Assembly (NCBI GenBank): GCA_029210695.1
Contig: JARGFH010000002.1
Span: 1-64,000 of the forward strand
From: Acidimicrobiia bacterium
Lineage (GTDB): Bacteria; Actinomycetota; Acidimicrobiia; Spongiisociales; JAHEDJ01
Length of the DNA stretch: 64,000 nt
Direction of reading: 5' to 3'
Part shown: in pieces, positions 4,976 to 9,784 of the stretch
Numbering within the stretch: position 1 is the first letter of the stretch
Layout of the letters: the number at the start of each line of letters is the position of its first letter
Translations under genes and position numbers: made by a program
The notes under the pieces: model-generated
The model's input: the letters and a program-made list of their open reading frames with translations, nothing else
The model's database searches: none
What the model was told of the DNA's origin: nothing

Positions 4976-5046
4976 GACCCCCCTCCACCTGGAGGATATA
5001 CCCGGTCGTCTACAGTACAGACGCTCCCGGATTGCGAGAAGTTCCC

Positions 5047-5793
5047 ATGTTGTCCGTCTACGCCGAGTCCTTCTCCCCGTCACTCGACACTGCCGTCTCA
5101 CATGCTTTGCTGCGAATGGTGGCCGACGGCGACTGCGGTGAATCTCTGCGCTTGTATCGACCAGATGATGTCGTCGCCTTCGGCAAGCGAGACGTGGTAA
5201 CCCACGGATTCCTCCAGGCAGTTGAGTCGGCGGGGAAGGCGGGTTTCGATTCGATCATCCGGTTGGCCGGCGGGCGGGCTGCCGTCTTCCATCGCGACAC
5301 AGTTGCCTTCGCCTGGACCATGCCCGCACCATCGCCTCGCGCCGGCATCAACGAGCGGTTCGAGCGCTTGTCGGATCTCCTGCTGGGCGCCTTCCGAGCG
5401 CTCGGGGCCGACGCCCGAATCGGCGAGGTCCCCGGCGAGTACTGCCCGGGCGAATTCAGCATCAACCTCGGCGGTAGGTCCAAGGTCATGGGTGTCGGTC
5501 AACGACTGATCGCCGGAGCGGCACACCTTGGCGGCGTGATCGTCGTCGATCGAGGTGACCGGATCGCGGAGGTTCTCGTCCCGGTCTATCGCGATCTCGG
5601 CCTCGAGTGGGACCCCGGCACATCCGGTGACCTGGCTTCCGGTGTCCCCGGTCTCACCTGGCCACAGGTTCACGAGGCAGTGCTGGGATCATTCGCGGAG
5701 ATCGCCGACATTGCCCCGGCGGCCATCCCGGCTGCGGTGCTGGCCCGAGCCAAAGGGTTAGAGCCGGCGCATGCAGTAGGCAATAGGCAATAG
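5047..5793 (+). CDS. Lipoate-protein ligase A / octanoyltransferase-like protein
   Basis: This is a biotin/lipoate A/B ligase-fold protein of about 248 aa. RLAGGRAAVFHRDTVAFAW matches the substrate-loop signature of LplA proteins, and GRSKVMGVGQRL carries the conserved lysine. The family attaches lipoate or octanoate to E2 and GcvH proteins; whether this is a ligase or a transferase cannot be told. The ATG at 5047 is preferred to the TTG at 5032. The last codons (AVGNRQ-stop) are made of a 7-bp tandem repeat, so the native C-terminus was probably altered by repeat growth. Confidence 0.8.
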   Translation: MLSVYAESFSPSLDTAVSHALLRMVADGDCGESLRLYRPDDVVAFGKRDVVTHGFLQAVESAGKAGFDSIIRLAGGRAAVFHRDTVAFAWTMPAPSPRAGINERFERLSDLLLGAFRALGADARIGEVPGEYCPGEFSINLGGRSKVMGVGQRLIAGAAHLGGVIVVDRGDRIAEVLVPVYRDLGLEWDPGTSGDLASGVPGLTWPQVHEAVLGSFAEIADIAPAAIPAAVLARAKGLEPAHAVGNRQ

Positions 5794-7952: not shown

Positions 7953-9140
7953 ATGCGTCGCATCCTCATCCTCAACGGCCCAAACTTGAATCTCCTTGGG
8001 ACCCGGAAACCCGAAATGTACGGATCCACCACACTCGGTGAGCTCGATCGGTTGTGCACCGAGTGGGGTGCACTTCACGGTCTCGACGTCGAAACGTTTC
8101 AGTCGAATCACGAGGGTGTTCTGATCGACCGGTTGCACCAGGCTCGCGAAGACATCGACGGGATCGTTCTCAATCCCGGAGCGCTCACGCACTACTCCTA
8201 CGCTTTGCACGATGCAATCGAGGCGATTGGACTACCGGTCGTTGAGGTCCACATCTCGAATATCAAGGAAAGAGAGTCATGGCGCGCCCATTCGGTGGTC
8301 ACGCCGGCTTGCGTCCACACCATCTACGGTCGCGGGGTCGACGGCTACCGCTGGGCGATCGACCATCTCGTCCACCGGGAGACGCGACCGCCCAGAGCAC
8401 TGGAATACGCGACCGGCGACAGCCACGTCGGTGACCTTCGCCTGCCGGATGGCGAGGGCCCGCACCCTGTCGCCGTTCTCATTCATGGTGGATTCTGGCG
8501 GCACCATTGGACCCGCGACACCCTGGACGCTCTCGCAGTCGATCTTGCCGCCAGGGGATTCGCAACGTGGAACATCGAATACCGTCGCGTCGGCATGGGT
8601 GGCGGGTATCCGGCCACCCTGCAGGACGTGGCGGCCGCCATCGATCATCTCGATGAGCTGGCGGCTGAGTATCACCTCGATCTGCAACGCGTCGTCGTGC
8701 TCGGCCATTCGGCAGGTGGTCAGCTCGCTCTTTGGGCGGCCAACCGCCACCGCCTCAAAGAGGATGATCCGGGTGCCGGGCCGCGGGTGCTGCCCGAAGC
8801 GGCAGTCTCGCTGGCCGGAGTCACAGACCTTGAGGCCGCCGAAACAACGAACCTTGGTGACGGGGCGGTGGACGGTTTCCTGGGCAAGGCGCCGCGTGAC
8901 GAAGCGTACCGGGTGGCTTCCCCGCTCCATTCGCTGCCCGCGGACCGGCCGCACCTGATCGTTCACGGCACGAAAGACGACCGGGTGCCGATCTCGTTCG
9001 CGCACTCCTACGTCGAGGCGGCTCGCCGGCCGGGCACCAAAGTGGAGCTCATCGAGATCAACGGTGCCGACCACTTCGATCCGATCGCACCGACAGGACC
9101 TGCCTGGGCTGCGGTAGTCGAGCGACTAGCCACGCTCTGA
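7953..9140 (+). CDS. aroQ: Fusion: type II 3-dehydroquinate dehydratase + alpha/beta hydrolase
   Basis: Residues 1 to about 145 are a complete AroQ: ILNGPNLNLLGTRKPEMYG carries the catalytic Tyr and Arg on the lid, LNPGALTHYSYALHDA the conserved Asn/His, and EVHISNIKERESWRAHSV the His and Arg. This domain converts 3-dehydroquinate to 3-dehydroshikimate in the shikimate pathway. Residues about 150-395 form an esterase-type alpha/beta hydrolase with oxyanion motif HGGFW, nucleophile elbow GHSAGG, acid HGTKDDRVP and histidine GADHFDP, resembling BD-FAE and kynurenine-formamidase-like enzymes. The reading frame is continuous with no stop between them. The hydrolase substrate is unknown. The next gene overlaps its stop by 1 bp. 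Confidence 0.88.
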   Translation: MRRILILNGPNLNLLGTRKPEMYGSTTLGELDRLCTEWGALHGLDVETFQSNHEGVLIDRLHQAREDIDGIVLNPGALTHYSYALHDAIEAIGLPVVEVHISNIKERESWRAHSVVTPACVHTIYGRGVDGYRWAIDHLVHRETRPPRALEYATGDSHVGDLRLPDGEGPHPVAVLIHGGFWRHHWTRDTLDALAVDLAARGFATWNIEYRRVGMGGGYPATLQDVAAAIDHLDELAAEYHLDLQRVVVLGHSAGGQLALWAANRHRLKEDDPGAGPRVLPEAAVSLAGVTDLEAAETTNLGDGAVDGFLGKAPRDEAYRVASPLHSLPADRPHLIVHGTKDDRVPISFAHSYVEAARRPGTKVELIEINGADHFDPIAPTGPAWAAVVERLATL

Positions 9141-9784
9141 TGTTCCCAGCGTTGGCGGCGACTACCGCAGTGGCCATGGCGGTGCTGGTCTGGGCTGAAT
9201 GGAAGCACTCGAAGATCCGGTTGATCGCCAAGCCACTCGCCTCCGCCGGCTTCGTTGCCGCCGCACTCCAACGGGGAGCCTTCGATTCGACGTACGGGAG
9301 GATCCTGCTACTCGGCCTGGTGCTGGCTGCAATCGGCGACGTTCTCCTGCTCGGCTCGACTCGCCGGATGTTCCTGGCCGGCCTGGTCAGCTTCCTGCTC
9401 GGTCACGTGGCGTATGGGGTTGCCTTTTCGACCCTTGGGCTACGGCACGGCACAGACATCGACTTCATCTGGACGGCGGCGGTGAGCTTGCCGATCGCCG
9501 CCGTCTCCTACGTGGTGTTCAGATGGCTGAAGCCGCACCTATCGGACGATATGCGCAGCCCGGTGTTGGCGTACGTGCTCGTCATCACGGTCATGGTGTT
9601 GACTGCGTTCTTCGCAGTCGAAGGTGGCGCCACGGGCTTGATCCTGGTCGGTGCGGTTGGGTTCTTCCTATCAGATCTGGCCGTCGCTCGTAATCTCGTA
9701 GTCGAATCGATCACAAATCGGGTGTGGGGCCTGCCGCTGTATTACGCCGCCCAATTGGTGCTGGCCTGGACGGCCGGGACCTGA
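9140..9784 (+). CDS. YhhN/TMEM86-family membrane protein
   Basis: The 214-aa integral membrane protein has about seven to eight hydrophobic helices. It carries the family's acidic and polar motifs GDVLLLGSTRRMFLAGLVSFLLGH and FFLSDLAVARN. Eukaryotic TMEM86 relatives are lysoplasmalogenases that cleave vinyl-ether lipids; bacterial function is mostly inferred. It is translationally coupled to the AroQ-hydrolase gene (TGATG). Its stop codon directly abuts the stop of the convergent ferritin gene. Confidence 0.8.
   Translation: MFPALAATTAVAMAVLVWAEWKHSKIRLIAKPLASAGFVAAALQRGAFDSTYGRILLLGLVLAAIGDVLLLGSTRRMFLAGLVSFLLGHVAYGVAFSTLGLRHGTDIDFIWTAAVSLPIAAVSYVVFRWLKPHLSDDMRSPVLAYVLVITVMVLTAFFAVEGGATGLILVGAVGFFLSDLAVARNLVVESITNRVWGLPLYYAAQLVLAWTAGT

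Follow-up and report, generated by a model that had tools for sequence, protein, structure and literature searches.

The window, a stretch of 64,000 nucleotides on contig C2 of genome G000 (3.9 Mb, 98% complete), carries a gene in which a type II 3-dehydroquinase (AroQ) and an alpha/beta-hydrolase are joined in one polypeptide chain. We regard it as a new and conserved type of fusion, one branch of which consists of hitherto unrecognised pseudoenzymes, and its function is in part inferred. A sequence-only reading of the window had known of no common fusion of this kind. As far as the literature goes this stands, with no published report found either of AroQ joined to a hydrolase or of pseudo-dehydroquinase domains (subscription literature lay outside the search), but within its own order of the Acidimicrobiia the fusion proved to be common.

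The fused gene and its spread

The fused gene (7953..9140, + strand) is open from an ATG at 7953 to a TGA and encodes 395 amino acids. Residues 3–139 (7959..8369, +) form a type II dehydroquinase domain (PF01220, DHquinase_II, E 8.6e-56) that scores above the curated cut-offs of both PF01220 (187.9 bits against 23.3) and the equivalog TIGR01088 (177.8 against 169.85). All type II catalytic residues are present (N13, R18, Y23, E98, H100 and R111), together with the further conserved residues N11, N74 and H80. The serine alpha/beta-hydrolase domain (PF20434/PF07859) occupies about residues 163–395 (8439..9137, +), with a BD-FAE/Abhydrolase_3 match over residues 163–374 in a Pfam search of the window protein (E 4.2e-29) and 102 bits for PF20434 (BD-FAE) against a cut-off of 26.8. 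Within it lie the oxyanion-hole motif HGGFW (residues 178–182, 8484..8498, +), the nucleophile elbow GHSAGG with Ser253 (residues 251–256, 8703..8720, +) and Asp342 within HGTKDDRVP (8976..8978, +); His374 (9072..9074, +) completes the Ser-Asp-His triad. The uninterrupted frame, the complete dehydroquinase and the three hydrolase motifs are thus all as the sequence-only reading had described them.

The interdomain segment (residues 140–162, 8370..8438, +) has no in-frame ATG, GTG or TTG, the sole such codon between codons 101 and 200 being GTG115, inside AroQ; production of a separate hydrolase from an internal start was ruled out on this ground. An AlphaFold2 model of the window protein, built with 48 window and relative sequences, shows two well-defined domains (pLDDT 94.3, pTM 0.93), with a pLDDT of about 93–97 for the interdomain segment. 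The modelled AroQ half superimposes on that of Corynebacterium glutamicum (8idr_D) with a TM score of 0.94 and 54% identity.

Of 59 genomes searched from the same order, 38 contain the full-length fusion if the window genome and one whose copy has an internal stop are counted; a class-wide sample added nine more from this order, giving 47 altogether. The fused homologues show 45–93% identity. Because the full-length fusion recurs at this range of identity in genomes of the same order, an assembly artefact or a chance frame can be excluded, and the fusion in the window is confirmed as a real, single chain. The prospect of two separate genes in relatives, which would have undone the earlier claim, did not materialise: relatives have either the fusion or an AroQ with no such hydrolase nearby. 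AroQ and hydrolase have been kept together across at least six families, and this order has carried the fusion for a long time. Elsewhere in the class, the class-wide sample yielded no intact fusion. In a different class, the intact form is also carried by two genomes that belong to a single genus (family f70; G451, locus L123, and G441, locus L124), and since their AroQ sits inside the order's AroQ tree, beside family f6, horizontal transfer of the fusion to them is suggested.

Both active sites are conserved among these proteins. In the AroQ half, N11, R18, Y23, N74, H80, E98, H100 and R111 are each kept in 48–50 of 50 fused homologues, and N13 in 43. In the hydrolase half of the intact fusions, H178 is kept in 48 of 49 and G179, G180 and W182 in all 49, as are Asp342 and His374, with Ser253 present in 48 of 49.

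The fusion is also the only dehydroquinase found in genome G000, where searches for both type I and type II enzymes gave nothing beyond it. Exactly one type II match was obtained in 44 of the 46 genomes with an intact-length fusion; the two exceptions are G012, with an extra 41-residue fragment, and G026, the one genome of the order with a second full-length aroQ (L206), which derives from outside the order's clade. The fusion of G026 (L296:4842-5933, G026:C103) carries a nonsense codon in its AroQ half (QSNH*GEL), the remainder being intact; this may be incipient AroQ decay, which would fit the pattern of decay seen elsewhere, or an assembly error.

In families f7 and f8 the corresponding locus contains an unfused aroQ, with a lipoyl-ligase-like gene upstream and a YhhN gene nearby. 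The lipoyl-ligase-like gene, found in the window at 5032..5793 (+; PF21948, E 3.6e-13), marks 24 of 26 fused loci and 12 of 14 loci with unfused aroQ. A hydrolase encoded as a separate neighbour in f7 and f8 was considered and rejected, no gene of that family being present within the flanks examined. In the AroQ tree the f7/f8 sequences are nested among fused forms (support for this nested group 97/94), so that these families have probably lost the hydrolase; a strict single clade of fused forms still passes the AU test (p-AU 0.08).

Decayed AroQ domains and fusion-specific residues

The same hydrolase was found with an N-terminal domain of about 100–140 residues in Nocardia albiluteola (L069), Rhodococcus (L078, L162), Nonomuraea gerenzanensis (L163) and other Actinomycetota genomes. 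Pfam does not recognise this domain, its best score being 11.9 bits against the cut-off of 23.3. A search with a fused-AroQ profile finds it in members of f77, f55 and G215 (E 7e-13 to 6e-7), and HHalign aligns the whole set of decayed N-domains with AroQ at E 1.6e-16; the Nocardia/Rhodococcus group alone aligns over the C-terminal 44 columns only (E 4.9e-7). The decayed domains have lost the catalytic motifs and retain the GRG motif. Homology and the loss of catalytic residues both point to an AroQ-derived pseudoenzyme.

When the Rhodococcus form was modelled with AlphaFold2, only two sequences covered the N-domain, which showed a beta-alpha-beta pattern at low to moderate confidence. A fold search with that model returned hydrolases only among the top 50 matches listed, and it therefore adds no independent evidence for an AroQ fold. 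The shortest decayed domains, of about 100 residues, are those of L149 and L154 (G383 and G470, family f84), in which the middle of the fold is apparently deleted.

Of 11 genomes with the decayed form, 10 also encode a separate type II dehydroquinase. For the decayed domain, pairwise dN/dS was roughly 0.25–0.6, thus below 1 and above that of the hydrolase, with synonymous sites partly saturated. That an AroQ domain without its catalytic residues remains attached where a spare aroQ exists suggests a structural role, in which the AroQ-derived domain would be kept as a partner of the hydrolase. The hydrolase tree places standalone forms on one side and fused and decayed forms on the other with weak support (60/92); a strict single clade of decayed forms is compatible with the data (p-AU 0.53), and decay may have happened once or several times.

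Residues specific to the fused forms were found in both halves. R127, within the GRG motif (residues 126–128, 8328..8336, +), marks fused forms whether intact or decayed, occurring in 50 of 50 intact fusions, 11 of 15 decayed fusions and 2 of 12 standalone AroQ of the same order. Shortly after HGGFW, a loop containing W186, R188, D189 and D192 (residues 186–192, 8508..8528, +) is found in fusions of both kinds, intact and decayed, but seldom in standalone hydrolases (D189: 100% of intact fusions, 93% of decayed fusions and 23% of standalone hydrolases). The GRG/R127 region and the W186–D192 loop are candidate contact surfaces between the halves.

The hydrolase family and its tryptophan-breakdown neighbours

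The HGGxW motif and the Ser-Asp-His triad are conserved in intact, decayed and standalone hydrolases alike; Ser253 is present in 14 of 14 decayed and 60 of 60 standalone forms, Asp342 in 14 of 14 decayed forms and His374 in 13 of 14. By sequence, the nearest solved relative is a carboxylesterase (9x6a), and the Drosophila kynurenine formamidase 4e11 ranks 9th of 52 (profile E 1.7e-12), with esterases scoring higher. In structure searches the kynurenine formamidase fold was one among many similar hydrolases, the top matches being carbohydrate/acetyl-xylan esterases and BD-FAE (6xyc/6tkx) the best match by both family and fold. The substrates of characterised BD-FAE enzymes are sugar esters; the genes scanned here showed no carbohydrate context.

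The gene neighbourhoods of several relatives point to tryptophan breakdown. Divergent from the decayed-fusion gene lie a tryptophan 2,3-dioxygenase gene in Nocardia and a kynureninase gene, above the equivalog cut-off, in G469. On a plasmid island of Rhodococcus NJ-530, a tryptophan dioxygenase gene with an adjacent class V aminotransferase gene is accompanied by an acyl-CoA aromatic hydroxylase operon, and the hydrolase gene is directly 3′ of a salicylyl-CoA 5-hydroxylase-type gene. Tryptophan dioxygenase and kynureninase-like genes accompany the hydrolase in G551 and in G470, in the latter both within about 11 kb. Kynureninase-like genes adjoin three standalone relatives (L059, L127 and L139), and for the majority of standalone homologues from other phyla no neighbour of this kind was seen. 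Tryptophan-pathway neighbours were present at 5 of 15 decayed-fusion loci (two of the five at ~10 kb) and 1 of 62 controls, namely AroQ-only and intact-fusion loci (p 0.0008), or at 3 of 15 when only close neighbours are counted (p 0.02); these p values ignore relatedness, and flank lengths were unequal. None of 28 intact fusions had pathway genes beside it. A free-standing aroQ in G045 (L203) has a kynureninase-like gene ~0.8 kb away, the sole case among AroQ-only loci.

At the level of whole genomes of the order, matches to the tryptophan dioxygenase family were found in 11 of 39 with the fusion and in 0 of 11 without the hydrolase (p 0.045). In the window's genus (G000, G002 and G003) there was no match to tryptophan dioxygenase (PF03301), and therefore no obvious source of N-formylkynurenine; a search for indoleamine dioxygenase, run without a positive control, was likewise empty. 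Genome G000, without a tryptophan dioxygenase, has a kynureninase-like gene (L295:4948-6246, G000:C15) of 142 bits against an equivalog cut-off of 246. PF04199 cyclases (KynB type) are too broad a family to tell whether another formamidase exists. In f3 (L294:3516-7351 and L283:3509-7365), an operon combines an SDR gene, a tryptophan-dioxygenase-family gene that is divergent in sequence (172.6 bits against a cut-off of 390.7), a kynureninase-like gene, also divergent, and a gene for 258 amino acids without a Pfam match, and may represent a variant pathway.

Since relatives adjoin tryptophan 2,3-dioxygenase and/or kynureninase genes, our best guess from gene context is that the hydrolase family is kynurenine-formamidase-like, as its HGGxW motif had led the sequence-only reading to propose. 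The proposal gains from these neighbours and is weaker for the window's own organism, which has no tryptophan dioxygenase match. A coupling of the shikimate pathway to a hydrolytic step, which that reading also entertained, is conjectural.

Explanations, known relatives and the downstream gene

The reading that we favour, with somewhat better than even confidence, combines a working AroQ with an arylformamidase-like hydrolase, the AroQ half serving as a cap or scaffold and decaying where a spare aroQ exists. Judging from its conserved residues, the N-terminal half would be a functional type II dehydroquinase that performs this step of the shikimate pathway for the cell. The C-terminal half, an HGGxW serine hydrolase, would be a putative arylformamidase acting on N-formylkynurenine or a related aryl-formamide or ester. 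The AroQ half would pack on the hydrolase, probably at the entrance to its active site through the GRG/R127 region and the W186–D192 loop, and may act there as a cap or as an assembly scaffold. Where a genome has its own aroQ, the dehydroquinase site of the fusion would decay and the domain would stay. A bolder formulation, in which a formamidase of tryptophan catabolism took over a core shikimate enzyme as a lasting structural domain that, with a spare aroQ at hand, gave rise to an unrecognised family of pseudo-dehydroquinases, is tentative, and we would put it rather below an even chance.

The proteins might instead be two independent enzymes sharing a chain, with a generic esterase brought next to AroQ by a deletion between neighbouring genes and a link of no functional meaning. 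The absence of a pathway joining the two in the window's genus agrees with this, as does the loss of the hydrolase in f7 and f8 with no obvious replacement nearby, but it sits poorly with a pair kept across so many families, with fusion-specific residues in both halves and with the constraint under which decayed AroQ domains persist in genomes that could do without them, and we think it unlikely. A hydrolase that frees a substrate of the shikimate pathway, such as quinate from a quinate ester, and channels it to the dehydroquinase would suit a best Pfam match to BD-FAE, a family that includes feruloyl esterases, and the esterases among the top folds. Such channelling is improbable, however: the hydrolase of the relatives sits with tryptophan and aromatic acyl-CoA catabolism, no quinate dehydrogenase neighbour occurred among the genes scanned, and the AroQ half of the relatives is without its catalytic residues, which rules channelling out as the common function. 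The hydrolase tree fixes neither the root nor the order of intact and decayed forms, which leaves room for a history in the opposite direction, in which a dehydroquinase-like domain was at first a non-catalytic partner and this order acquired or regained catalysis. We give this very little credence, as regain of every type II catalytic residue is implausible and the intact forms fit an ordinary AroQ tree.

Compared with known AroQ enzymes (EC 4.2.1.10, for example C. glutamicum 8idr), the window protein has the same full domain, fold and set of catalytic residues, and adds the C-terminal hydrolase and the R127/GRG signature of the fused forms. With the alpha/beta-hydrolase kynurenine formamidases (EC 3.5.1.9; Drosophila 4e11/4e15) it shares HGGxW, GHSAG, the Ser-Asp-His triad and the fold; it differs in being distant in sequence, in its fusion to AroQ (in relatives, to a decayed AroQ) and in coming from a genus without the pathway genes. 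Other shikimate fusions include the plant DHQ dehydratase–shikimate dehydrogenase and the AROM complex, both of which use a type I dehydroquinase. Bifunctional shikimate enzymes, among them DAHP synthase–chorismate mutase (PMC12202928), likewise unite a shikimate enzyme with a second catalytic domain; they link steps within one pathway (or a regulator), whereas AroQ is joined here to a hydrolase foreign to the pathway.

If the favoured reading is correct, one chain would unite a reaction from the early part of aromatic synthesis with one of tryptophan breakdown. The same fusion with a live or a dead first half is a natural experiment in enzyme recruitment: as live and dead AroQ halves occur in genes that are otherwise kept, a structural role would be separable from catalysis. 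In Streptomyces kynurenine-pathway clusters, arylformamidases are found alongside tryptophan dioxygenase and kynureninase (PMC4194701, PMC6521150). The decayed forms may point to the formamidase in certain tryptophan-degradation clusters of actinobacteria; the annotation of the gene there reads simply alpha/beta hydrolase, and Pfam misses its first domain.

Downstream of the fused gene, a YhhN-family membrane protein is encoded at 9140..9784 (+; PF07947, E 4.9e-34). A YhhN gene adjoins the fusion in L220 too and lies near a standalone aroQ in L194, and it is probably unrelated in function to the fusion. In the window its ATG overlaps the TGA of the fusion in a TGATG at 9138-9142, an arrangement that suggests translational coupling of the two genes in the window's genus.
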